Shown here piece after piece: positions 2,346 to 57,697 of a stretch of 64,000 bases of DNA. The notes beneath the pieces were generated by a model, which was not told the DNA's origin, ran no database searches, and worked only from the letters and a program-made list of their open reading frames with translations. The stretch is taken from the NCBI GenBank assembly GCA_020746105.1, contig JAJGST010000022.1, positions 2,243,135 through 2,307,134 of the forward strand, in the 5' to 3' direction. Source of the stretch: Trogon surrucura (lineage: Eukaryota; Chordata; Aves; Trogoniformes; Trogonidae). The stretch's first letter is position 1. Every line of letters starts with the position of its first letter. Both the position numbers and the translations under genes were made by a program.

Positions 2346-3978
2346 CTCCCTAACTTCTTTATTATTAATATTACTCTGTAACACAGCAATCTCAGCTCCA
2401 GTATCCACCAGAGCTAACACATGTGAAGTTCCTCCAGATTGCCACTGTATAGTTAAAGCAACACAAGGGTGTGTGTCCTCCTCATGATAAGAGGCTACAG
2501 CTGCTGCTATCTCAGAGGACCTGCCAGATTTCAGCTTTTGCTGTCTCAGCACTCCCCAGGCAGTGCCCTGCTCTGAGGCAGCAGGAGGGGTCTGGGCTGG
2601 TGGCGAGGCCGGATCCAGCCCTGCGCTGCCTGCTGTGCTGGCGGTGAGGTCTGTGACTGCCCGTTTGCTGTTAGGCTTTGTGACCTGCAATACTGGTGTT
2701 GCAGACATGGCATTACCCATGGTGTTGGTGAAAGCACCATGTATGCGCAACAGACTCTGTTGTATGAATTCAGCTGTGCTCTTTGCAGAGTCTTGTAATG
2801 GTAAAATAGCACGCTGGCAGTCAGCATTATCATGTTCATATGCTAATTGCATTAAAGGTGTTTGTAGCGCTTCCTCATTGTCTATCTGATGAGTTAAAGC
2901 AGTCTGCAGTCTATCAATAAACATAACATTACGTTCTTGCAGACCCTGCCGTATCACTTCAAATTATAATTGCCGTATCCGTACTTCAGGGACACGTCTC
3001 AAACTTTTCATTGCTGATGTAGTTACTTGTTGTAAGATCAGTTGTGCTAAATTTGCTTGAGCTTGCAGCATGGCAAATTGTCCTTCTCCTACATATTCTG
3101 CCATACCACCTGGAGTTAAGCTCGCAATATCATCCATAGTCTGAACCGTGGCAAATTCCCTATACTCTGCCCACCAAACAGTATATTGTGCTGCACTCAG
3201 AACCAATCTCATCAGAGATTTCCAATCATATGGTGTCATAGTATGAGATTCTCCAATTGTTTGCAACAAATTCATGGTATAATTATTCTGCAGCCCATAT
3301 TCTCGTATGGCCTTCCGTACTTCTTTAACAATCTCATATGTGAATTGCTGATATTCGGGAGGTCGGTTTGGCTGATACAGCACAGGACATGTCACCCACA
3401 TAGCGAAATCGCCTTTCTTAATAGCTTCCTCCTTTACTTTCTCAACAACAGGTTTATAGGGAGATGCCGACACAGACATCAAAGGACGCTCTAAAAATTC
3501 TTTCAAGAATGGCTCTGCCCCTGCATTTGGTGGTGCCTCTTCAGCAATTGTTGCAGGTGGAATTGAAATACTGATAAGAGAGGGCAGCTGTGATTTATTT
3601 TTCAGAATTTGTTCTGCTGTTAGAGATTCTGCTGCCACATTTTTAATAGACTTTATAGATGGGTATAAGCCTGACTCTTTTTCAGGATCAATAGTATCAG
3701 GGTCACATGAATCCACGGACACTTTATCACAAACATGCTCTGCCATGCCCTGATTGATGAAAATTAGGGGTTCAGCAGAAGCAGTGGTTCCTGCCGCTTG
3801 CAAGAGTTCCTCAGCAGGCTGTAATCCAGTTAAAGCAGTGTAAACTGTCTGCCACGTAACAACTAATTCATCTGGTATCTTAAACTGTGAATCTTTCTTA
3901 ATCTGTACTTCATCACCAACCTTTGCCCACAATTTTGTATCATAAAAGCCTGAATTAGGAAACCATTTACAATATTCC
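2343..3978 (-). pseudogene. gag: Class II (beta-like) gag-dut-pro, nucleocapsid deleted
   Basis: On the minus strand, a matrix-like region (YCKWFP, then LWAKVGDEV) is followed by a long capsid with the NTD motif YTVWWAEY. A stop lies near 2962. The capsid CTD follows, with a major-homology-like segment (IDRLQTAL, then ALQTPLMQLAYEHDNADC). The two CCHC zinc knuckles expected next are absent: the sequence passes directly to the start of dUTPase (STAGSAGLD) and to the protease active site (ALVDTGAE), then stops at 2343. The dUTPase-before-protease order is typical of betaretroviruses. Its 5' part is fused in frame to gamma-type env TM. It is related to the gag of provirus D (39.4-41.2 kb). It cannot encode a working Gag because NC is lost. 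Confidence 0.8.
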
Positions 3979-4953
3979 TTAACTATCCCACTTTGATCTA
4001 CATACATGCAACAGCTCGTGTTTGTTATTGTGCATACCCCTCCCTGGGAGGCCAATAAAAGATCCAGCACCTGCCAATTTTGCAACACAACCTTTGATAG
4101 GCTAGATACTTCCATCGGAATCGCCTGAATGGCATCTATGGTCTTATTTTCAATATTTTCTATCACAGCCGAAATGCCGAAATGTTCACTATGGCTTTTT
4201 CTAATTCTCTTACTCCTAGCCAAGGAAGAAACCATCGGGCAAAACTATGGAAAGCAGATGGCCTCCTTTCAAGGGGGTTATCCGGAACTGCGCGTGTCCG
4301 CCTCCACAGTGTTCGAACTGTCCCTGGGGGCGGATTGGTAAATACACTACTTCTAGGATGAAGGTAGCCCCCTATACAATGACCTTTCCAATTTAGAGGC
4401 AAACTTTTTCTGGCATAAACATCTCCACATAGACAATAGCTACCCTGCCCTAGTTGACATTCCGTTATAAGGGGGGGGTTAGACCAAATTCGCCCCGTTT
4501 GTCTGCACATAATGTGAAATTCCCACCTAAAGTAGTAAAGTTAAAAATACCTACAAATTCTGCCCCGGTACAATTAGGTTCTTTTGCTGTATAGGCAAGA
4601 GGACCAAAATTTGTGCATGGTCAAGTATCATTTAAACATCTAGAGTAAACTGTCATCCCTTCTCGAAGAAGCAAATCAAACCTTGATCCTGGCTGTGTGC
4701 TACTGTTTCCAAGGGGACATTGCCATGTTTTCTTTCTCCAGTCCATGCTGGGGATTCCCCATACTGGGGCTTCCTCATTATCTCTGGGTAACATTGTACA
4801 TATCCAACAATCAGAAAGATTAAAGCCATGACTCATTGCCTGTGTAAGCCTCACATAAACATTGTGTTCCCATTGCTCTGCTTTATCAACCAACAAACTT
4901 ATCAGGACCGTGTAAAACATAACCTTCCAGGTTGCACCTGGGTAACCTTCCAT
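3979..4953 (-). pseudogene. env: Gamma-type env, broken SU and truncated TM
   Basis: The 4953-4621 piece begins with a hydrophobic leader and carries the CWIC (CXXC) motif of gammaretroviral surface subunits. The 4510-4163 piece continues SU to a basic cleavage region and a hydrophobic fusion-peptide-like stretch. TM (4235 to about 3979, another frame) shows the immunosuppressive-domain-like LQNWQVLDLLLASQGG followed by a CX6CC cluster. It is cut immediately after SGIV, where class II matrix sequence begins. The start overlaps the integrase end at 4902, as in gammaretroviruses. At least two frameshifts and the missing membrane anchor make it non-functional. Confidence 0.8.
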
Positions 4954-29946: not shown

Positions 29947-30260
29947 CTAATTCCTTCTCTTAAGAACAACTCTGGATAGTTTAACTGAACACGAAGTTAT
30001 AACAGGGACAAACCTATACCTACAAACTAAACAACCTAAAAACCACTGTCTATTATTATAAGAAAAAAAAACAGTTTCCCACACCCTCCACAGTAAAAAT
30101 GTCCTTGGAGCCACACTGTGCAGCCACAAGGTGGCCAGTGTAGTCCACACACTTTAGTAATTGTAAGCTTCTCAACTTCTCTCCCAAATGCTACAGTATT
30201 AGGTACCAGTGGTAATGATATCCGTAGTTCTTGTTCCAGTATCGAGCGAAGAGGCCGTAG
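29947..30260 (-). pseudogene. Decayed homologue of the provirus E extra ORF
   Basis: Between the end of pol and env, one minus frame from about 30260 reads through CGLHWPPCGCTVW and HFYCGGCGKL, reaching a run of T at about 30062-30070. Beyond it, a neighbouring frame (to 29947) reads NRQWFLGCLVCRYRF and ends in a basic KRRN. The order CTxW, CGGCG(K/R), RQ and CxxCxYR(W/F) matches residues 76-110 of the extra ORF of provirus E. As in E, its upstream part overlaps the pol tail in another frame. It is shorter than in E and broken at the T-run. Homology is by eye. Confidence 0.65.
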
Positions 30261-32975
30261 ACGTAGTTCCCTGCGTCACCTCGTCCTGAATTGGGCTGCT
30301 ATGTTCTTCAGTATTTTTCGCTATCCACGGTTTCACCCACTTCGCGGGTACCCACGATGATTTGTCACCTAGAAAAACACAAGTATAACCCCGCCCCCAA
30401 GTTAATAATCTCACCGGTCCAAACCATTTTTGTGTAGCGGGGTCCCAAATTTGTACAGAAACATCGTGTGTTAATAAGGATCCTTTCCTTTGATGATGAA
30501 GTTGAATGGGCGTCAGTTGTTGTTTAGTATCTACCACATCGATGTATGTCTTCCAATTGTGAACATATACCGCTTTCATAACGATTTCCTGAGGTGTGAG
30601 GGTATGTTCTCCCTCTTTTCATAACGCTCGGAATAAGCGTTTAAGGTCCTGATGTTTTCGTTCGACAATGACTTGTCCAGTGCTGTTATAAGGGACACCC
30701 AATTGGTGTTGAACACCCCAGGCAGATAAAAAGGACTGAGCTACTCGGCTAATATAATTGGTACCATTATCTGTTTTGAGGATATCGGGTTTGCCTAAAA
30801 CAGCAAATGCTTCCAGCCAATGGCGACATGTCGTGCGGCCTTTGCTGTTTGTCATTGCGGAGGCCCACACAAGTTTACTGTAGGAATCAATAGTAACATG
30901 AACAAAACGCCACCGACCAAAAGCAGGATAAATTGTAACGTCAGATTGAAATAATTTACCAGCCTCCAATCCACGAGGGTTGGTACCAGTCTGTTGTAGA
31001 GGAGGTAATTTGGAACAGTCTGGACACATAGCGATAATGCCACGGGCCATAGGACGAGAAATATCAAACTCCTTTTGTAAACTGCGTGCTGATTGATGAA
31101 AAAACTGATGCGAAAGTTCAGCTTGGGCAAAAGGAGTCAGCCCTACTACTGGGGCTGCTACAGCCTGATCAATCACAGAGTTACCTGCACTGAGAAATCC
31201 AGGTAATTGGGTATGACTACGAATGTGAGTAGAGAAAAAAGGATAATGACGGCTATTAACTAAATTTAACAAATAAAGTATTTCTTTTTCAATAAGAGGG
31301 TTGGCAAACTTACCCAGTAGCGCATCAGTAATTCTATCAAGAATAGAGTTAACGTAAAGAGAATCTGAAATAAGATTAAACGGTGTAGAGTTAAAATGTT
31401 TAAATGCAAGTATAACTGCTTTCAATTCTAAAATTTGTACAGACACTCCGAGTGCAGTATACACAGTAGACTGCCATTTTCCCTCGACTTTCACAGAAAA
31501 ACCATATTTTGAAGTTTTACCACTGGCATCAGTAAATACAGTAGGACAGTCCTTGAGCGGGGAATCTGAACGAACACTGGCACTCCTGAAAGGAAGATTC
31601 ACAGAAAATATTGGGCTTTGTGGATAATGGTTATCAATAGTCAAACCTAACACAGCAGTAGCAAAAATAACAGAAGTCAATTGCCATTCTTCGATAAGAA
31701 GAGACATTTTAAATGGAAGTGTCACAGTAGTAGGTTCAGTACCGAAAACTTGTCGAACACGCTGCTTAGCTTTTAGAATAAGTTCACCCAAATTATCAAT
31801 GCGTCGAAGAACAGAGACAGTAGGTACACTTTTAGTAAAAACCCATTCCAAAGGAAAAAACTGTTTGCCATCAGAAGTGGTCTGGCCGATAAGGGCCATT
31901 TGCTCTGCTTTTAAATTAAAAACGTAGATGCCAATGGTGAGTTGTGGATCAAATCGATATACACAAATGTTATTTATTTTTCGAGAGATTATAGCAAGTG
32001 CTGTCTTACCTTCCTCGGTAAGCGTACGCTGGTCAGTAATACTTGTGGAACCTTCTAACAAAGAGCGAAGAGGGATTAAATCTGAATTAGTGATACCGGT
32101 CCATGCACGAACATATTGAATGTCACCTAACAGTTTTTGTACATCATTCACATTTTGAATTACTGCATGCATTGTTAATTTTTGAGGTTTAAATCGATTT
32201 CTGGTAACCTCGAAACCTAGGTATAACCAAGGTTCAGTTCGTTGGATTTTTTCTTCTGCAACACGTAACCCCCACTGCTCAAGATTGGACAAAAATTCTT
32301 TCTCCTTATCAATAGACAAAGGTTGTTTGCTTGCCACTAGAATGTCGTCCATGTAGTGATATGTGAGGAGATTAGGATTATTTTCCCTCCACTGATGTAA
32401 CGCTTGATCCACAAACCATTGACAAATAGTAGGACTATTACGCATACCCTGTGGGAGAACGACCCATTCATATCGTTTCATAGGAGCGTTATTGTTTATA
32501 GATGGTAAACTGAAGGCAAACCGCTTAGTATCCTCTGGATGTAAAGGAATACTAAAGAAACAATCTTTAACATCAATTACAAAGAGATGATACTCCTTTG
32601 GGAGTCCAGCAGGTGACGGAATACCCGGTTGAAGGGCCCCAAATGGCAGCATTTGTTCATTAACTGCTCGTAAATCATGCAATAAACGCCACTTTCCAGA
32701 CCTTTTTTGAATTACAAAAACAGGGGTATTCCAGGGGCTGTGAGATATTTTTAAATGTCCCAATTGTAATTGTTCATTTACTAATTCATGTAGATGCTCT
32801 AATTTTTCTGCTGAGATGGGTCACTGAGCAACCCGCACAGGCTCTTCCGTAATCCAGGACAGCTTAATTGTGGGTCGAGCATCCTTTTGCTCAGCGGCCG
32901 TCACTAAAAATGGTGGCTGGTAAGGACGACATTCCACTGACTTAACACATCGCGACCGATGATCCACAAGGGGGT
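30199..32975 (-). pseudogene. pol: pol of class II provirus B, nearly complete
   Basis: The main frame at 32763-30619 encodes RT (IDVKDCFFSIPL, LPQGMRNSPTICQWFV, intact YHYMDDILVAS) and RNase H (VFTDASGK, LELKAVILAF, ISDSLYVN, GNSVIDQAV). It continues into integrase with HHCC (HQFFHQSARSL, CPDC) and catalytic residues in FQSDVTIYP, KTDNGTNYIS and IVERKHQDLK. A single TGA at about 30620 interrupts the frame before the C-terminal domain (30579-30199, WGRGYTCVFLG). A second TGA (a Trp codon in relatives) lies at about 32821. Protease C-terminal sequence (IIGRDVLSQW) is at about 32900-32970. It is distinctly diverged from provirus E pol but collinear with it. Confidence 0.9.
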
Positions 32976-49173: not shown

Positions 49174-49442
49174 TGTCACGTCCCGACCTCTCAGGACGTT
49201 GACCCAGGTTCGCTGATTCCCAGACCAGGATTAAGGTGACTTATACCAAGGATCCGAAACAGCAATTTTATTTTCCAAGCACCTGACACCGAGGTATTTC
49301 AAATGCCCACTCAGTGCGACCAACACGCTTCACAACAACTAGTTATTAATAAGCAAAAGAAACTGACCTTGCCATAGATAGTTCCCTGTTAAAGCAAGAA
49401 AGAGAGAGAAGGAAAGTGATAGAGAAAGGAAAGATCACCACC
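49174..49442 (-). repeat. ERV-L 3' LTR, distal part (split by provirus E)
   Basis: The plus strand starts TGTCACGTCCCGACC (sense end CGTGACA). It contains AATAAAAT on the minus strand near 49270. It continues at 57373 on the other side of provirus E, giving a ~588-bp LTR. 49437-49442 (ACCACC) is one copy of E's target duplication. Confidence 0.8.
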
Positions 49443-49841
49443 TGTGGAGAATATTGTGGAAACATGGTTAAAAGAGAAAGGCCATGAAGAAAGGCATCAG
49501 GAGGATACGATTAGATTAATGGACGTGTAGTACGTGCGGGACGTGGATGTGTAATACGTGAGGTATGTGGACGGGACAACATGCTTGTCCTTGAGCTAAA
49601 AAGGGTACGATAGCAGGTTGTTGAAGAAGAAAACAAGAACTGGGAAAAGTAACAAGTAAAAGCTACAAAAACTGCAAATACTGATATGATGCTAATAATA
49701 TGGTAGCCAATAAGGAGCTTAGCTTTTGCAATATGTATGAACCTAATTATGAGTACTATAAATGTATGAATTGCTGAACAATAAATTTGAGACTTGTTGA
49801 TCACTATAGAGTGTGCTCGTCTCCCGCTGAAATCTCCGACA
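49443..49841 (+). repeat. 5' LTR of provirus E
   Basis: It runs from TGTGGAGAATATTG to ATCTCCGACA. CCAAT is at 49707-49711, TATAAA at 49757-49762 and AATAAA at 49780-49785. The close TATA/AATAAA spacing implies a very short R region, as in avian sarcoma-leukosis viruses. Confidence 0.95.
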
Positions 49842-49843
49842 AA

Positions 49844-49861
49844 TGGTGACCCCGACGTGAT
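49844..49861 (+). other. Primer binding site, tRNA-Trp
   Basis: TGGTGACCCCGACGTGAT, two bases after the LTR, is the primer site used by avian sarcoma-leukosis viruses. Confidence 0.95.
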
Positions 49862-50035
49862 ACATCGAAAAGAAGAAGGGATTCAGCGAAGGAGTTCAGG
49901 TCCTATGCAGCGAGGACGGCGATAAGAGCAGCCCGAAGAAAAGGCGCTCCGAGCCCTGAGTGACCGCATCGGCGAGCTCAGCTGATACGTGCTGCCGAGA
50001 CCTTGGAAAGCTGCAACAGCGCTGACGTTTAAGGT

Positions 50036-51781
50036 ATGGAGAGGCAAGCAGCATATGATTTATTTACGACCTTTTTAGAAAAAAGGCAGATTAAGGGGTT
50101 AAATTTGCAGAAAGATTTACCAGGACTGTTAGCGTTTGGGTATGCGAAAGGATGTTTTACAAATCCCCATACAGTCCACGAGTTATCAGAGTGGAGGAAA
50201 TTTGGAGATATATTGTGGGAGTTGACTCTGCAGGATGATAAGATGGCGATTAAGTTTGGAAAGATGTGGCGGGTAGTGCAGAATGAGTTACTACAGTATC
50301 AAGCAGAAAAAACAGCGGCTCAAGAAGCGACTGCCGCACAACAAAAGAACAGGTCCTATGATAGAGAACTGACAGGGGGAATACCGTTACCACCTCGAAT
50401 TTCCAAGATAACTTTACCACCCCTACGGCCAGTAAATACGGAAACCGAGACAGAGACTAGTTGCTGTCCAAAACTCTCGGCCCTGCAACCTCCTCCTGGG
50501 CGGCCGCCTCCACCACCGCCTTCTCTGCTTGTGCAAGAGCCATCACCAGACAATTCCCAGAGCACCAGTGAGCCGATCCCTGGGGCAAAAGCTGACCCAG
50601 CGGGGGCCCTGGCGAGGGAACGTCGGGAGGCATGGGCTGCTCTAGCGAGAGATAGCATGAACAGGGGGGATGATTGGGCCATTCAGACAGCGACACAGTT
50701 GGCTTGTCCGGTTACGTTTCAGCAGGCTGAGGGGGGAGGATACGTAGCTGAAATTAACCCACTGGATTGGAAGTTGCTAGCGCAGCTGCGAGCTACTGTA
50801 AGTCAGTTTGGGGCAACGAGTGAGCCTGTAAAACAAATGTTGGATTACTTATGGAGCACACAGGTATTGTTACCATCAGATTGTAAAGGGATAGTAAAGC
50901 TGATATATACACAGCATCAACAGTTGATTTTTAACGCGCATTGGCAGGGGCTTGTTAATGAAGCTGTGGCAGTGCAGAGGCAGGCAGGTGATCCGTTGCA
51001 TGGAATAACCATAGATGAGCTTATGGGTTTGGGTCCTTACTTTAATACGGAAGCTCAGGCATTGCTGGGACCAGATAAGTGTAGGGAGGCTATGAGATTA
51101 GTGCGACTCGCTATGGATCGGGTTAAGGAGCCAGGAGGGATACCATTCTATATGGGGGTGAAACAAGGTAGAGAGGAGTCACTGGGAGCATTTGTCGATA
51201 AGATAGCAACCGCAATAGAAAAGGCAGGAGTGCCTGAATATATGAGGGGAGCCTTATTAAAACAATGTGCTCTCCAAAATGGAAATGCAACTACTAGAAG
51301 CATTATAAGTACACTGGGACCTCAGTGGAGTATAGAGGAAGCACTAGAAAAAGCAGCAACAATGCCCACAGGGCATCAGGCTTTCCTGGTAAATGCTATA
51401 AAAGAGCTAGGTGATGGGTTGAGAAAGCAAGCAGAGGCTTCACAGAATCAGGTGCTGGCAGCTCTTGCTCCTCTCCAAGCGTCCACAGTAATTAATCGGC
51501 AGTCACAAGGAAATCGACCTAAATGTTTTCGATGCGGGGGCTCCGGTCACATACGAAAGGATTGTACTGCTACACGCGTCTGGTGCCAAAAATGTCGGGC
51601 CAACACTCACAGCACTGGTGCATGCCGCGGAAAGTCGGGAAACTCCAGTACCAGCGCGAACCGCAGTGGCCGCGCAACGACACAAGTAGCAGCTGCAATC
51701 CAACAACCACCCAGTCTGCTGGACAACAGCTCCACCCAGCGACAAGAGGGAGCCTCGGCCTGGACTTGGCAGCCGCAGTAG
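50036..51781 (+). CDS. gag: Gag polyprotein of provirus E
   Basis: 581 codons. The matrix-like N-terminus begins with Glu after Met, so it is not an N-myristoylation signal, and includes ELSEWRKFGDILWE. A proline-rich linker follows (PPPGRPPPPPPSLL, about residues 154-168) with no PPxY or PTAP motif. The capsid starts near residue 220; its MHR-like segment is QGREESLGAFVDKIATAI (about 382-399). NC has two zinc knuckles, CFRCGGSGHIRKDC and CQKCRANTHSTGAC. The ATG at 50036 has G at +4 and is the first long frame after the leader. The end overlaps the pro frame, with a slippery site at 51637. Gag would assemble virus particles. Confidence 0.95.
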   Translation: MERQAAYDLFTTFLEKRQIKGLNLQKDLPGLLAFGYAKGCFTNPHTVHELSEWRKFGDILWELTLQDDKMAIKFGKMWRVVQNELLQYQAEKTAAQEATAAQQKNRSYDRELTGGIPLPPRISKITLPPLRPVNTETETETSCCPKLSALQPPPGRPPPPPPSLLVQEPSPDNSQSTSEPIPGAKADPAGALARERREAWAALARDSMNRGDDWAIQTATQLACPVTFQQAEGGGYVAEINPLDWKLLAQLRATVSQFGATSEPVKQMLDYLWSTQVLLPSDCKGIVKLIYTQHQQLIFNAHWQGLVNEAVAVQRQAGDPLHGITIDELMGLGPYFNTEAQALLGPDKCREAMRLVRLAMDRVKEPGGIPFYMGVKQGREESLGAFVDKIATAIEKAGVPEYMRGALLKQCALQNGNATTRSIISTLGPQWSIEEALEKAATMPTGHQAFLVNAIKELGDGLRKQAEASQNQVLAALAPLQASTVINRQSQGNRPKCFRCGGSGHIRKDCTATRVWCQKCRANTHSTGACRGKSGNSSTSANRSGRATTQVAAAIQQPPSLLDNSSTQRQEGASAWTWQPQ

Positions 51782-52458
51782 AAGTGGACTTGATAACTAC
51801 GTGCCCTCAAAAGATTGCTACAGGAGTTTATGGACCTGTACAAGTACAAGGACAAATAATGGGTGCATTACTTTTGGGACGATCATCTGCCTCTATGCTC
51901 GGATTATTTATAATTCCTGGCGTAATAGATGCGGACTATAAAGGAGAAATTATGATAATGGCCTATACCCTAAACCCACCTATAAGAATTCAAAAGGGTC
52001 AGAGGATTGCACAATTAGTGCCATTACCCCAACTGACTGCGGGAATGAAGTCCTGTATACAGGACGCAAGGGATCAAAAAGGTTTCGGATCAACAGGAGG
52101 TCTGACGCTGTTAACTCTGGACCTAAAAGATAGACCAAGAAAGAAAGTACTACTGACGTATCTGGGACAACAAAAGACTGTTATGGGACTGTTAGATACA
52201 GGAGCGGATTCCAGCATTGTTGCACCGTCATCCTGGCCTCAGGAATGGCCATTACAAGCATCCACTACTACTGTCACTGGGGTAGGAGGACTGACACTGG
52301 CAAGTCGCTCGCCAATTCTTCAAGTGACAATAGAACACAAAACAGTGACAGCAGCTTTTTGTATTACACAACTACCCCCCACAGTGGACTGTTTGATTGG
52401 TCGGGACATTTTATCTCAATTGGGTATGGTATTAACGAATGAGCACCCTTTGGCATGA
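51523..52458 (+). CDS. pro: Pro: dUTPase plus aspartic protease, -1 frame
   Basis: This frame is -1 to gag and is open from 51523. Translation would enter by frameshifting near 51643 rather than at a start codon. dUTPase motifs are LGLDLAAA, LLLGRSSASMLGL and GVIDADYKGE, with a C-terminal GFGSTGG. The protease follows with LLDTGADSSIVA and CLIGRDIL. The dUTPase-protease fusion between NC and RT is a betaretroviral arrangement. It ends in a TGA at 52456-52458, just after a second slippery site. All catalytic motifs are intact. Confidence 0.93.
   Translation: MFSMRGLRSHTKGLYCYTRLVPKMSGQHSQHWCMPRKVGKLQYQREPQWPRNDTSSSCNPTTTQSAGQQLHPATRGSLGLDLAAAVEVDLITTCPQKIATGVYGPVQVQGQIMGALLLGRSSASMLGLFIIPGVIDADYKGEIMIMAYTLNPPIRIQKGQRIAQLVPLPQLTAGMKSCIQDARDQKGFGSTGGLTLLTLDLKDRPRKKVLLTYLGQQKTVMGLLDTGADSSIVAPSSWPQEWPLQASTTTVTGVGGLTLASRSPILQVTIEHKTVTAAFCITQLPPTVDCLIGRDILSQLGMVLTNEHPLA
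51637..51643 (+). promoter_or_regulatory. gag-pro -1 frameshift site GGGAAAC
   Basis: It is read as G GGA AAC in the gag frame, a canonical X XXY YYZ heptamer. A GC-rich region with self-complementary GCGCG/CGCGC follows within 15-40 bases and could form the stimulatory structure. Confidence 0.85.
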
Positions 52459-55130
52459 CGGCTGCTGCCTGGACTTTCCCAATTCCCATTACCTGGAAAA
52501 CAGATTCTCCGGTGTGGGTTACGCAGTGGCCTTTAAAACGGGAAAGTCTTCACCATGCTCACGAACTAATTACTGAGCAATTACAACAAGGACATCTGAA
52601 GTTGTCTACTAGTCCATGGAACACCCCTATATTTATAATTAAAAAGAAATCTGGAAAATATCGACTGTTACATGATCTTCGTGCGGTCAATGAGCAGATG
52701 GAACCTATGGGTGCCCTACAACCTGGACTCCCTAATCCTGCCATGCTACCAGAAAAATGGCCTCTATTGATCATTGATCTTAAGGATTGTTTTTTTACAA
52801 TTGCGTTACACCCGAATGATACACGGCGTTTCGCCTTTACGTTACCCGCTATAAACCGTGAGGGCCCGGATAAGCGATTTGAATGGACAGTACTACCACA
52901 AGGGATGCGCAACAGCCCCACTTTGTGCCAGCTTTTTGTGGATGCTGCTTTACAGCCACTCAGGCGGCGATGGCCCACAACTGTCATTTACCATTATATG
53001 GATGACATTCTATTTGCTCAACAAGAAGCATTTTCTGAAGCACAGATACTACAGATTCAATCTACTCTAAAGGAGCATAATCTTGTTATCGCTCCAGAGA
53101 AAATTCAACGCACTGCTCCATGGAGATACTTGGGACTGGTATTAAAAAATCAATTAATAACTCCACAAAAATTGACCTTGCAGTTGGACATTAACACCCT
53201 TACGGATGCACAGAAGCTATTGGGAGACTTGCAGTGGTTAAAACCAATTGTGGGTATCCCCAACGAACTTCTTAGTCAGCTTCGACCACTCCTTAAAGGC
53301 ACAGATCCGACTCAGAGGGTTCTGCTTACCACGACACAACGCCAGATATTGCGACAAATTGCAGACTGTGTTGTCAATGGCCAAATCTGGCGCCTTGATC
53401 CTGAAGTGCCCATAGATCTGACTATCTGGTATGGACCTGCTCATTTATTAGGGGCACTGACACAAAACTTAAAGAAAACGGGGGAGTTACGGGTATTAGA
53501 ATGGCTAACCCCGCCACTACAACAAAGGACAACACTGTTGCAAAAAATCGAAGCACTGGCTGCATTAATTAAGAAAGGAAGAGAACGGGTAATGCAGGCC
53601 TCGGGCCAGGAACCAGAGACGATATACGTCCCAATGAAGAAGGACGCATTGCAATGGCATTTGAACAATAGTACGGACCTACAAGAGGCGTTATTGGGAG
53701 GAAGCAGTACTGTATCACCTGTAGCATCTCTAACGCCACCGTTACAATGGATTGGGCAACAAAGTTGGATCACAGAGCCGAAGCGTAAAGCCAGCCCCAT
53801 CCCGGACGGTCTGACAGTATATACCGATGCTGGAAGAAAATCAAGAACAGCCGCTATTACGTGGCAAAAAGGGGGACAATGGCAGCACAAGATTTTACCA
53901 GCGGAGGAGGGCGATACATTACAAACATTGGAGTTATTTGCAGTGGTTTGGGCAATAATAAGCTTTCGAGAGCCCTTAAACATAGTTACTGATTCTCTCT
54001 ATGTAGCTGGGGTAGTAACAAGGATAGAGGAAGCAGATATAAAAGAAGTAGGGAACAAGCGGTTATTTGAACTTTTTGTCCAATTACAAAAAACAATAAA
54101 AATAAGGGATCAGCCTTATGCTATTATTCACATTAGAAGTCATAAGTGGGATGTTGGTCTAGGAGAAGGCAATGCAAGAGCAGATAAACTGGTATCGGTA
54201 ACACAACAGACACCTTTATCGAAAGTTAGGCTAGCTAAAGAGGCTCATTCAGTTTTTCACCAAAATGCAAAGGGGCTACGACGGGAGTTTGACATTTCAT
54301 TGGCTGAAGCTACTGCAATAGTAAGAACGTGCCCTGTATGCAGCCATCACAATGGAGGATTGGGTATAGGTATAGGAGTTAACCCTCGTGGCATCACAGC
54401 AAATGAGACTTGGCAAATGGATGTTACTCATGTTAATAGTTTTGGGCGCTTAAAGTATGTCCATGTAACAATCGATACATATAGTAAGTTTATATGGGCA
54501 ACAGCTCAGGCTGGAGAAAAGGCTGTCCATGTAATTAGACATCTATCTAGCTGCTTTGCAATAATGGGGAGCCCGATGCAGATAAAGACAGACAACGGAC
54601 CTGCTTACATTAGTCAAAAAGTGAAGAAGTTTCTAGATTTTTGGGGGATAAAACATGTCACAGGAATACCATATTCCCCCACAGGACAAGCGATTGTGGA
54701 AAGGGCACATGGGACATTAAAGAGGTTCCTAGACAAATATCCGGAAGTAAAAGATCCCCAGGAAAAGCTGTTACGAGCTTTATTTGTAATCAACCACCTT
54801 TGCGTATTCGGGGAGGCAAAACTGCCCTCAGTTGTTATTCATTTTGGACGGAAACAGCAACCTACAGACAAAAGGGACATTTGGGTTATGTATCGTGATT
54901 TGAAGACAGGACAATGGCAAGGTCCAGTTAAAGTTCTAGTATGGGGTAGAGGTTATCTTTGTGTTTCTACTTCAACAGGTTCGGTGTGGGTACCAGCGCG
55001 ATGGACAAAACCCTATATAGGCAATGGACCTAGACCTGACGGCATTCACAGAGATAACCAAGTGGAGGATTCTACAGGCAACGAGACCAATCTTGAATCA
55101 GCTACTCGGGAAGGTTACCCCGAGGATTGA
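52443..55130 (+). CDS. pol: Pol: reverse transcriptase, RNase H, integrase
   Basis: 891 codons from the Met at 52455, entered by frameshift just upstream. RT: DLKD at residues 108-111, LPQGMRNSPTLC, YMDD at 181-184. RNase H: VYTDAGRKS, LELFAVVWAI, VTDSLYVAG, GNARADKL. Integrase: HHCC (HSVFHQNAKGL, CPVCSHH) and catalytic residues in WQMDVTHV, KTDNGPAYIS and IVERAHGTLKRF. The C-terminal domain has GQWQGPVKVLVWGRGY. All catalytic residues are present and uninterrupted. The last ~35 codons overlap the next ORF in another frame. Together with Gag and Pro it would carry out reverse transcription and integration. Confidence 0.95.
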   Translation, partial: APFGMTAAAWTFPIPITWKTDSPVWVTQWPLKRESLHHAHELITEQLQQGHLKLSTSPWNTPIFIIKKKSGKYRLLHDLRAVNEQMEPMGALQPGLPNPAMLPEKWPLLIIDLKDCFFTIALHPNDTRRFAFTLPAINREGPDKRFEWTVLPQGMRNSPTLCQLFVDAALQPLRRRWPTTVIYHYMDDILFAQQEAFSEAQILQIQSTLKEHNLVIAPEKIQRTAPWRYLGLVLKNQLITPQKLTLQLDINTLTDAQKLLGDLQWLKPIVGIPNELLSQLRPLLKGTDPTQRVLLTTTQRQILRQIADCVVNGQIWRLDPEVPIDLTIWYGPAHLLGALTQNLKKTGELRVLEWLTPPLQQRTTLLQKIEALAALIKKGRERVMQASGQEPETIYVPMKKDALQWHLNNSTDLQEALLGGSSTVSPVASLTPPLQWIGQQSWITEPKRKASPIPDGLTVYTDAGRKSRTAAITWQKGGQWQHKILPAEEGDTLQTLELFAVVWAIISFREPLNIVTDSLYVAGVVTRIEEADIKEVGNKRLFELFVQLQKTIKIRDQPYAIIHIRSHKWDVGLGEGNARADKLVSVTQQTPLSKVRLAKEAHSVFHQNAKGLRREFDISLAEATAIVRTCPVCSHHNGGLGIGIGVNPRGITANETWQMDVTHVNSFGRLKYVHVTIDTYSKFIWATAQAGEKAVHVIRHLSSCFAIMGSPMQIKTDNGPAYISQKVKKFLDFWGIKHVTGIPYSPTGQAIVERAHGTLKRFLDKYPEVKDPQEKLLRALFVINHLCVFGEAKLPSVVIHFGRKQQPTDKRDIWVMYRDLKTGQWQGPVKVLVWGRGYLCVSTSTGSVWVPARWTKPYIGNGPRPDGIHRDNQVEDSTGNETNLESATREGYPED
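52446..52452 (+). promoter_or_regulatory. pro-pol -1 frameshift site CCCTTTG
   Basis: It is read as C CCT TTG in the pro frame, four bases before the pro stop. The pol frame has a stop at 52440-52442, so the shift must occur between there and 52458, and this is the only fitting heptamer. Confidence 0.75.
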
Positions 55131-55662
55131 TCGGTATATCACACGATGCTCCACAGCGGACAGAGTGCTCTCAATAATATCAATATTGTCTAATATAACA
55201 TTTGAAAATTTGTCTCAACAGGCATGCAGAGGTTGTAATGACGAACATTGCACTGCTTGGGTAAAGATTTGTTGTGGAGGGTGTGGGCGCATTGTGTGGA
55301 TATATCAGAGACAGTTATATGTGCTAAGGTGTCAGCATTGCTACTATCGTTGGAATCGATTTAACGATTGGACTATAGCATTACAGGAGTTGACGGGGCT
55401 CCCAGGAATACAAGGGTTAACACTGCTGGAAAGCAAAGAACAGAGGGTCATTACGTTACTCCGCTGGCAAACCAGACAAGCTGTTCATCGTGTGCTGAGT
55501 GAGGTGCAGACGCAGATAATAACAACTCAGTGTCAGAGAACAATTAGGGTACCCAGACAGTGGATGGTTAGCCAAGATGAGTGGGACCGTTTATGCGTCA
55601 GGTTTGCTGCTATGGGTAATGGTAGGGGGAGTCGTCGTCGTTTTCGGAGACACAACAGGTGA
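55024..55662 (+). CDS. Extra ORF between pol and env: Cys-rich, Arg-rich tail
   Basis: 212 codons in a frame different from pol and env. It overlaps pol by 107 bases and env by 86; about 450 bases are covered by this frame alone. Residues 68-106 form a cysteine cluster: CxxC (68, 71), HC (75-76), CCxxC (83-87) and CxxC (103, 106), the last two being spaced like a zinc ribbon (CGGCGR and CQHCYYRW). The C-terminus is strongly basic (GRGSRRRFRRHNR), like nucleic-acid-binding or nuclear-targeting tails. The ATG has G at -3 and +4. There is no signal peptide or membrane segment. Position recalls accessory or regulatory genes of complex retroviruses. I know no family match. Function is unknown; RNA- or DNA-binding regulation is a guess. 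Confidence 0.8.
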   Translation: MDLDLTAFTEITKWRILQATRPILNQLLGKVTPRIDRYITRCSTADRVLSIISILSNITFENLSQQACRGCNDEHCTAWVKICCGGCGRIVWIYQRQLYVLRCQHCYYRWNRFNDWTIALQELTGLPGIQGLTLLESKEQRVITLLRWQTRQAVHRVLSEVQTQIITTQCQRTIRVPRQWMVSQDEWDRLCVRFAAMGNGRGSRRRFRRHNR

Positions 55663-57061
55663 ACATGTTCTAACTTTAGACTCTAGGGAAAATATATGGG
55701 TTACTTGGGCACAATCTACTAATCAAACTGATTTTTGCCTTTCTCTCACGCAAGCTAATAATCCATTTCGGACCTGCCTGATTGGATACCCTTACTTTAG
55801 ATGGAAGGATTGGACAAACCATACCAAAGTTAACGAAACAACGGTTTGGGACGACTCATTATTTCGGAGGCAAATTAACAATAACACCTGTGTTATGAAT
55901 GTATCCAGTGTAAGAAATGCTTTCGAATTGTTTCAGGTACTCAGTAATTTGACCTTTAATACCACAGTACCATTGCAAGAACTAGATTTGATGGGATCGT
56001 TTTCACCTTATGGTGAATTGGTCAATTTCACCGAAACAAGAAACTGTAGTACAGAACACTTTTTGAGCGCAGAAAATGGTACAGGAGCAGTTCTTTTTAA
56101 TATTCGGCATGCGTTTGACAATTCGGCATTTTGGACTCTTAAACAATCGGTTAGCTCATCACGTTTAGGTCAGTGGAAGAATACTTCGCTCACTCATGGT
56201 ACACTAGAAGTAACAACATTGGGAAATTATCGATTTCCTCCGGGGTACTTTTTAATTTGTGGAGATCGAGCTTGGCCAGGTATTCCTGAGAACCCATGGG
56301 GAGGGCCTTGCTACGTAGGGAAGCTTACCATGTTTACTCCTACTTATAGAAATCTACAGCTTAACGTATATAACCGCACTCGCAAAACACGAGACATCAA
56401 AGGCATTGGTCCAGACTGTGACTCTCGGGTACAGATATCTTCCTTAGGAGCTGCAGTTTCTATGACCTTTTTTGCCCCGGGCTTAATTGGTGCTGAAAAT
56501 TGGCGAAATATTAAGCATTTAGCCTGCTTTGCAGTTCAAGAATTTAACATTACTTCTAACATTTTGACAGATTTGATGCATGATGTGGATAGCATTAGAC
56601 ATGCCGTACTGCAAAATCGCGCTGCTATTGATTTTTTGTTGCTAGCCCAAGGCCATGGTTGTACTGAATTTGAAGGTATGTGTTGTTTAAATTTGTCTGA
56701 TCACAGCAATAGTATACATGCTCAAATTCAGAACTTACGCAGGAAGTTCAAGGAGATTACCGTTTCATCTAGTTGGCTTGATAACTGGCTGTCATCATGG
56801 GGAATTAGTGGTTGGCTTTTTGATCTTATCAAACATGGAATAATTATTGTGTTGGTGATTCTGCTTATATTAATGCTTTTGCCATGCTTGTTGCAATGTA
56901 TTCAATCCTTTATAACTAGGACAATGAATAGATTTACTGCTTCACTTATGGTTGTTAAAGAAAACGGGGGAAATGTGGAGAATATTGTGGAAACATGGTT
57001 AAAAGAGAAAGGCCATGAAGAAAGGCATCAGGAGGATACGATTAGATTAATGGACGTGTAG
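55577..57061 (+). CDS. env: Env glycoprotein of provirus E
   Basis: 494 codons. A hydrophobic leader (GLLLWVMVGGVVVVFG) is followed by an SU with many N-glycosylation sequons (for example NHTK, NETT, NMTF-like NLTF). The motifs FCLSLTQANNPFRTCLIG and FLICGDRAWPGIPENPWGGPC are shared with B and C. A basic cleavage region (NRTRKTR) precedes TM, which has an internal fusion loop after DC, LQNRAAIDFLLLAQGHGC with the CX6CC cluster, an anchor (IIIVLVILLILMLLPCLL) and a long tail. The reading frame ends 88 bases inside the 3' LTR. CX6CC and an internal fusion loop are alpha/gamma-type traits. Mediates entry in the family; intact here. Confidence 0.95.
   Translation: MSGTVYASGLLLWVMVGGVVVVFGDTTGEHVLTLDSRENIWVTWAQSTNQTDFCLSLTQANNPFRTCLIGYPYFRWKDWTNHTKVNETTVWDDSLFRRQINNNTCVMNVSSVRNAFELFQVLSNLTFNTTVPLQELDLMGSFSPYGELVNFTETRNCSTEHFLSAENGTGAVLFNIRHAFDNSAFWTLKQSVSSSRLGQWKNTSLTHGTLEVTTLGNYRFPPGYFLICGDRAWPGIPENPWGGPCYVGKLTMFTPTYRNLQLNVYNRTRKTRDIKGIGPDCDSRVQISSLGAAVSMTFFAPGLIGAENWRNIKHLACFAVQEFNITSNILTDLMHDVDSIRHAVLQNRAAIDFLLLAQGHGCTEFEGMCCLNLSDHSNSIHAQIQNLRRKFKEITVSSSWLDNWLSSWGISGWLFDLIKHGIIIVLVILLILMLLPCLLQCIQSFITRTMNRFTASLMVVKENGGNVENIVETWLKEKGHEERHQEDTIRLMDV
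56956..56973 (+). other. Polypurine tract of provirus E
   Basis: AAAGAAAACGGGGGAAA lies immediately before the 3' LTR TG, within the env reading frame. Confidence 0.9.
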
Positions 57062-57372
57062 TACGTGCGGGACGTGGATGTGTAATACGTGAGGTATGTG
57101 GACGGGACAACATGCTTGTCCTTGAGCTAAAAAGGGTACGATAGCAGGTTGTTGAAGAAGAAAACAAGAACTGGGAAAAGTAACAAGTAAAAGCTACAAA
57201 AACTGCAAATACTGATATGATGCTAATAATATGGTAGCCAATAAGGAGCTTAGCTTTTGCAATATGTATGAACCTAATTATGAGTACTATAAATGTATGA
57301 ATTGCTGAACAATAAATTTGAGACTTGTTGATCACTATAGAGTGTGCTCGTCTCCCGCTGAAATCTCCGACA
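56974..57372 (+). repeat. 3' LTR of provirus E
   Basis: Base-for-base identical to 49443-49841 by direct comparison. TATAAA is at 57288 and AATAAA at 57311. The first 88 bases also encode the env C-terminus. Confidence 0.95.
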
Positions 57373-57697
57373 ACCACCCCTGGATCCAGCGACGATCACA
57401 GCAATCCTCTAGTGGCGGGCGAAGAGCGCCCAACTGCCCGGGGTCATCACCTTTTGTACAGTCAAGTTCCTGCCACAGACCGGGAACCGGTTTGGGGGAT
57501 GGTGGGGGCTTCTGAGGGGGGATGTGTTACCCCTCCCTCTCCCGGTTTCTTGCAGCCACAGCTCCAAGCCCTATTCACCCCCACAGCTCCACCGGTGCAG
57601 GGCTGGGGCAGGGGGCTTGGCAAAGCGCTGAGTCATCCCCACACAAACACAGACAGGCGCAAGGCAGGCGGCTGTGGCTTGTTTACTGTTTGAGACA
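57373..57697 (-). repeat. ERV-L 3' LTR, proximal part
   Basis: Its sense start TGTCTCAAACAG is at 57697, preceded by a purine-rich tract (57698-57722). It is interrupted at 57378 by provirus E and continues at 49442. Plus-strand frames here are chance. Confidence 0.75.

Follow-up and report, generated by a model that had tools for sequence, protein, structure and literature searches.

We describe a gene, here called X, between pol and env of an intact endogenous provirus (provirus E) in the bird Trogon surrucura. The window, by which we mean the whole stretch of DNA analysed, comprises 64,000 nucleotides (nt) of contig JAJGST010000022.1 (assembly GCA_020746105.1, positions 2,243,135 to 2,307,134, forward strand) and lies on contig C61 of the 1.17 Gb host assembly that was searched (G000). 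X is almost certainly a real accessory-type gene, as the initial annotation of this DNA had proposed: its frame is intact in 3/4 copies, its ratio of nonsynonymous to synonymous change (dN/dS) is 0.35-0.42 against the fourth, and protein-conserved relatives occupy the same place in two divergent lineages. As far as our database and literature searches reach, the gene is undescribed. The features concerned are as follows.

55024-55662, plus strand: gene X, ATG to stop, 212 codons, between pol and env, frame +1 to pol
55131-55576, plus strand: X-only part, 446 nt common to no other provirus gene
55225-55341, plus strand: Cys region of X, codons 68-106, in which C84-C87/C103-C106 fits a zinc ribbon
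49443-57373, plus strand: provirus E, with open gag, pro, pol and env between a pair of long terminal repeats (LTRs)

The 212-codon frame was reported to overlap both neighbours and to hold about 450 bases free of other frames. It is indeed open throughout, the overlap being 107 nt with pol (last base of the stop codon at 55130) and 86 nt with env (ATG at 55577), and the free part measures 446 nt. The 444-nt in-frame X-only part was open in its frame in only 1/5000 dinucleotide shuffles, and in 0/5000 did any of the three forward frames hold 213 codons. The provirus is intact with identical LTRs, again as annotated: gag, pro, pol and env are open, and the two 400-nt LTRs agree at 400/400 positions.

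A search of the host assembly with X (E-value 0.001) returned four full-length places, and nothing else matched. X is open in copies 2 and 3 (96% identical to the window copy, copy 1) and carries one in-frame TGA in copy 4 (93% identical); the gene is hence intact in 3/4 full-length copies, and these three are all young. Copies 2 and 3 inserted independently: copy 2 is flanked by the duplication CTAAC and its LTRs show 2/400 mismatches, copy 3 by TCAAG with 3/400. The stretch examined around copy 4 yielded no 5′ LTR. LTR divergence between copies 2 and 3 and the window copy is 3.0-3.8%, and therefore most of it predates these insertions. Env of copy 3 is cut short at 245 codons, and X there is whole. 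Random breakage of the frame, which would have spoken against a gene, was not seen among the E copies; the decay in most copies of lineage R, described below, is due to lesions in proviruses other than these.

Against copy 4, the X-only part shows 10 silent and 10-12 altering differences (dN/dS 0.35-0.42), and the same pairs give 0.25-0.41 in pol and 0.18-0.27 in env. E-type relatives, for which the initial annotation had proposed computing this ratio outside pol and env, are at hand, and the ratio against copy 4 is not near 1. Moreover, all 4/4 differences from copy 4 in the pol overlap are silent in X and alter Pol. The env overlap has 4 differences from copy 4, which give a dN/dS of about 1.1. 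Pooled, 14/26 differences from copy 4 are silent in X, against about 7 expected (P 0.004).

Relatives of X were also found in two further lineages, R and C8. A second provirus in the window, on the minus strand and belonging to lineage R, has a pol 41% identical to that of E and contains the following feature.

29950-30275, minus strand: lineage R relative of X, in broken pieces, between pol and env of the second window provirus

As a query this R piece gave 55 matches in the host assembly (E-value up to 10). An open X-like frame of 183 amino acids (aa) is present at locus L035 (lineage R), and a more distant version, broken by a stop, at locus L041 (contig C8, lineage C8); both sit at the same place, between pol and env. 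X of E aligned with L035 at a score of 66 (shuffle mean 31.7, best 58; 0/1000) and with the longer L041 piece at 88 (shuffle mean 29.4, best 64; 0/1000). Identity of X between lineages is 25-31%, that of integrase 39-43%. Over 104 codons, the BLOSUM sum of L035 and the longer L041 piece was 281 in the X frame, against 94 (standard deviation 25) with the changes scattered (0/2000), and 79 and 68 in the other two frames. Over 154 codons, the differences between L035 and L041 fall at the three codon positions 61, 45 and 82 times (P 0.004). Taken together, the shuffles, the similarity of E to R and C8 and this frame-specific R-C8 conservation rule out a chance frame. A -1 frameshift from pol into X is likewise ruled out, X being +1 to pol in E, R, C8 and a fourth lineage, D.

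Breaks in the X frame of R copies often fall close to a T run of varying length that directly follows the CGGCG motif (minus strand of the window, about 30060-30075). Env of this lineage reaches 412 codons in 14/39 copies. Three loci with matches at E-values of 1.1-2.4 (L045-L047) have no pol or env match and were dismissed as chance.

The wider distribution was followed with the end of integrase, for which 150 matches of 1096 candidates in the assembly were scored and 12 further junctions examined (L088-L099). Two of these, L091 and L094, represent lineage D; they carry an open frame of 122 aa, containing three CxxC motifs, in the same place and frame relation as X. Integrase of lineage D is 49% identical to that of E and env 77%, which suggests that env may have been exchanged between lineages. 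As a query, the D frame matched only L091, L094 and one weak hit (E-value 0.011). Its comparisons with X of E, R and C8 were equalled by 43, 19 and 540 of 1000 shuffles; hhalign gave an E-value of 0.0059 but a probability of 6%, and the profile search an E-value of 0.28, fourth in the list, with at least 5/2000 shuffles higher. The Cys-rich frame of lineage D is therefore best called similar to X, its homology being unproven. At L088, L090, L092, L095, L097 and L099 pol and env overlap or almost touch, leaving no room for X, and L089, L093, L096 and L098, being without an env match, are uninformative. In a small integrase tree the lineages with X occur at two positions: one holds R and C8, the other E and D beside the X-less L088 (the E-D-L088 group at a modest support of 0.70). 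This split implies loss or exchange of X.

X is likely to be expressed from a spliced RNA, in which the leader donor would be joined to an acceptor just upstream of the gene.

50031-50039, plus strand: predicted splice donor (last exon base 50033), abutting the gag ATG, by matrix score only
54961-54979, plus strand: predicted splice acceptor (first exon base 54979), by matrix score only

With simple matrices, the donor is the best in 49743-50400, and the acceptor (score 5.8) the best in 54600-55700, the top of the 344 AGs in 50100-54600 reaching 3.1. A predicted acceptor occupies the corresponding position in L035 (the best site, 6.0), in C8 (one of the three best, 3.3) and in D (again the best, 7.6). 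X of E begins at a well-placed AUG of its own. Within the X frame of the R and C8 loci displayed, no AUG occurs before the far end, and the R-C8 similarity starts near a CTG in the context ATACTGG (-3 A, +4 G); ATA precedes CTGGAA in 70/70 rows, where CTGGAA was required by the pattern and some places were counted twice. From acceptor to env, 21/33 R leaders contain no AUG and 12/33 contain 1-4. These 33 distinct leaders are those with an env match from residue 1, 8 rows with other env starts (including L041) and 4 without the acceptor motif having been left out. AUG counts were 0 against a shuffle mean of 7.6 in L007, 0 against 8.5 in L026, 3 against 10.6 in L035 and 1 against 13.1 in L041; the E leader has 7 against 15.1. 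Lineage D has three AUGs ahead of env; each of them belongs to the X-like frame, and a T stands at -3 of the first.

We infer that X in R and C8 rather probably starts at the CUG, and that one spliced RNA may serve both X and Env in R, C8 and D. In R and C8 X would be translated from the CUG on the env mRNA, and ribosomes passing the CUG would start Env. In lineage E X would start at its own AUG, and env consequently needs another acceptor; a second one is probably used, e.g. near 55387 (weak score, 0.2). A parallel is found in the env leader of murine leukaemia virus (MuLV), which, according to the available part of PMC5778647, has well-placed CUG start codons ahead of the env AUG in the spliced message, opening upstream open reading frames (uORFs) of 34 and 91 codons, the latter in frame with pol. 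The R/C8 leader similarly has a well-placed CUG upstream of the env AUG. Unlike the MuLV uORFs as described there, X is a conserved, separate +1-frame protein, for which the use of CUG would be a proposal from sequence.

The four Cys motifs previously noted in X are present as claimed (C68, C71, H75, C76, C83, C84, C87, C103, H105 and C106), but two of the cysteines are not kept throughout: both L035 and L041 lack a counterpart of C71, and His in L035 and Tyr in E copy 4 take the place of C83. Six cysteines of E (C68, C76, C84, C87, C103 and C106) are aligned in E, L035 and L041, and part of X is probably folded as a C4 zinc ribbon, as predicted from these residues. The C-terminal arginine run did not hold up as a core feature. 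The DNA of this Arg-rich end doubles as the beginning of the Env coding sequence; the end differs among E copies (R205C in copy 2, R208W in copy 3) and is without a counterpart in L035 or L041. A conserved Arg-rich domain is ruled out by this variation and absence.

The HMM-HMM (hidden Markov model) searches suggested by the initial annotation yielded no significant relative, and the structure model made of X was unreliable. Profile searches of solved structures placed the zinc ribbons of eIF2 beta (E-value 0.17) and Shiftless (0.19, PDB 9kbo, profile A1) best, neither significant; these matches fit a ribbon-like pattern and nothing further. A Pfam-A scan with X (E-value up to 1) gave a single, irrelevant match at 0.98. 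The Pfam family UPF0515, which we take to be SHFL, matched L035 at 0.54, below the cut-off, and was absent from the scan with X. No relative was found in the protein collection with X (E-value up to 10) or alignment A1 (up to 1), nor among viral contigs with X or the integrase end as query; the best PHROGs match to X, at 0.061, was not significant. An NCBIfam match to X (E-value 0.011) was dismissed at 15.6 bits against a cut-off of 199. A literature search by title and abstract opening found no description of the gene, nor any report of such a gene in simple avian retroviruses.

On balance, the best explanation is that X is an accessory gene of avian-type alpha/beta-intermediate retroviruses, with spliced expression, a ribbon fold and antagonism of a host factor as its likeliest role. 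X would bind, block or redirect a host restriction factor and would be Vif/Vpr-like in role, not in descent. For this role, argued from pattern only, our confidence is tentative: X is patchy, lower in identity than integrase, and broken in R while env is open, which favours an antagonist over a required regulator.

Several observations weigh against this explanation. The whole X frame is open only in L035 among the 41 R/C8 loci with a match, 40/41 being broken, and the shorter, N-terminal L041 piece aligned with X of E at chance level (395/1000 shuffles). In the X-only part, copies 1 and 2, and likewise copies 1 and 3, differ by 6 changes, all protein-altering and none silent, where pol and env would lead one to expect 4-7 silent ones (probability of seeing none 0.001-0.015; small numbers). 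Unlike the X-only part, pol and env of copies 1-3 show many silent differences; recombination or positive selection may account for the all-altering pattern. Moreover, the first AUG after the E acceptor (55001) opens a 10-codon frame that overlaps the start of X. Lastly, the single structure model of X had a mean predicted local distance difference test score (pLDDT) of 43, too poor for use, and the antagonist role itself is drawn from pattern.

The strongest alternative, which we regard as unlikely, is a regulatory one: X would control the export, transcription or translation of viral RNA by means of a zinc ribbon that binds nucleic acid, its role being comparable to that of Rev, Rex or Tat. 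The top profile hits are the ribbons of eIF2 beta and Shiftless, proteins linked to RNA or the ribosome, only at the E-values given above, and L035 matched Rev at a chance-level E-value of 1.2. Lineage R has multiplied with X broken and env open in those 14/39 copies, unlike what is expected of a required regulator, and the Arg-rich end is not conserved. It is improbable that X is a diverged captured host gene, as in the crocodile endogenous retrovirus (ERV) CrocERV29, where the text available of PMC4299795 describes a captured KIT-ligand gene between pol and env. That element also has an extra coding frame at this position, but its insert is a recognisable host gene, whereas X had no host relative in the assembly searches. 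With the L035 frame as query (E-value up to 10) there were 114 matches: the best 113, judged by their scores and positions, are pieces of R or C8 proviruses, and match 114 has an E-value of 9.3. The E-type search returned only the four copies, and the databases held no relative. Very improbably, X could be an untranslated relic or an RNA element of the env leader, open by inheritance, a view that draws on the lack of an AUG at the frame start in R and C8, the few AUGs before env, the 40/41 broken loci and the 6/6 altering differences between copies 1 and 2, and that is countered by the frame-specific R-C8 conservation, the E-C8 similarity, the silent-only change in the pol overlap and the intact E frame with its well-placed AUG.

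An accessory gene with a possible role against a host factor invites comparison with known systems. Lentiviral vif lies between pol and env, overlaps both, and encodes a host-factor antagonist of about 200 aa with an HCCH cysteine layout. X resembles it in place, overlaps and size, and possibly in antagonism. Unlike Vif, X has the layout CXXC-15-CXXC, and the Pfam-A scans with X (E-value up to 1) and with the L035 frame and an L041 piece (up to 10) gave no match to the Vif family. Its spacing (C84-C87, 15 residues, C103-C106) is like that of the zinc ribbon of Shiftless (SHFL, C19orf66), given as CXXC-15/17-CXXC in the part of PMC9604422 at hand, but similarity to that family is not significant. 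Extra frames without a Pfam match have been described for jaagsiekte sheep retrovirus (JSRV; orf-x) and bat betaretroviruses (PMC3621094 and PMC8278194, in the portions available), and X is a further such frame; unlike orf-x, which is placed there inside pol, X extends beyond pol with 446 nt of its own.

The remaining features of provirus E are listed below.

49443-49842, plus strand: 5′ LTR, 400 nt
50036-51781, plus strand: gag, open, Pfam match
51523-52458, plus strand: pro with dUTPase, open, Pfam match; slippery GGGAAAC at 51637
52455-55130, plus strand: pol, open, Pfam match; slippery CCCTTTG at 52446
55577-57061, plus strand: env, open, Pfam match including Avian_gp85
56974-57373, plus strand: 3′ LTR, 400 nt

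The stretch at 49843-49861, just 3′ of the 5′ LTR, resembles a tRNA-Trp primer site, as in Rous sarcoma virus. The last 88 nt of the env frame (56974-57061) lie inside the 3′ LTR. CCACC flanks the provirus on both sides (49438-49442 and 57374-57378), and 5-bp target duplications (CCACC, CTAAC and TCAAG) were seen in 3/3 E insertions with both ends seen; for class II ERVs the duplication is usually 6 bp, according to the available text of PMC4299795. Provirus E has a dUTPase in pro, no G-patch match and in-frame slippery sites for two -1 shifts. These are the features given for alpha-beta intermediate avian ERVs in the accessible part of PMC1224870, to which we liken provirus E by these features alone; that part of the source mentions no accessory gene, and provirus E has X. 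Elsewhere in the window (2964-4235, minus strand) a 423-aa open frame matches first a transmembrane part of Env (TLV_coat, residues 32-87) and then Gag p10 and p24, i.e. an env piece fused in frame before gag. Contigs C60-C64 of the host assembly hold many provirus matches, as a retrovirus-rich sex chromosome would, which is a guess.

Bird retroviruses are usually regarded as simple. Since several lineages in one genome share a conserved extra protein, some of these viruses were complex, three young copies included. Moreover, the AUG-poor env leader suggests a route to two proteins from one RNA. It is possible, if doubtful, that X belongs to an old zinc-ribbon accessory family of avian alpha/beta retroviruses, which in some lineages would use a CUG start in the AUG-poor env leader to make X and Env from one RNA, and which would be fast-evolving and patchy through antagonism of restriction factors. 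If that antagonism is true, X would be a Vif-like weapon of bird retroviruses. X would also lead to a hitherto unrecognised virus-host interaction in birds, approachable via one small protein.

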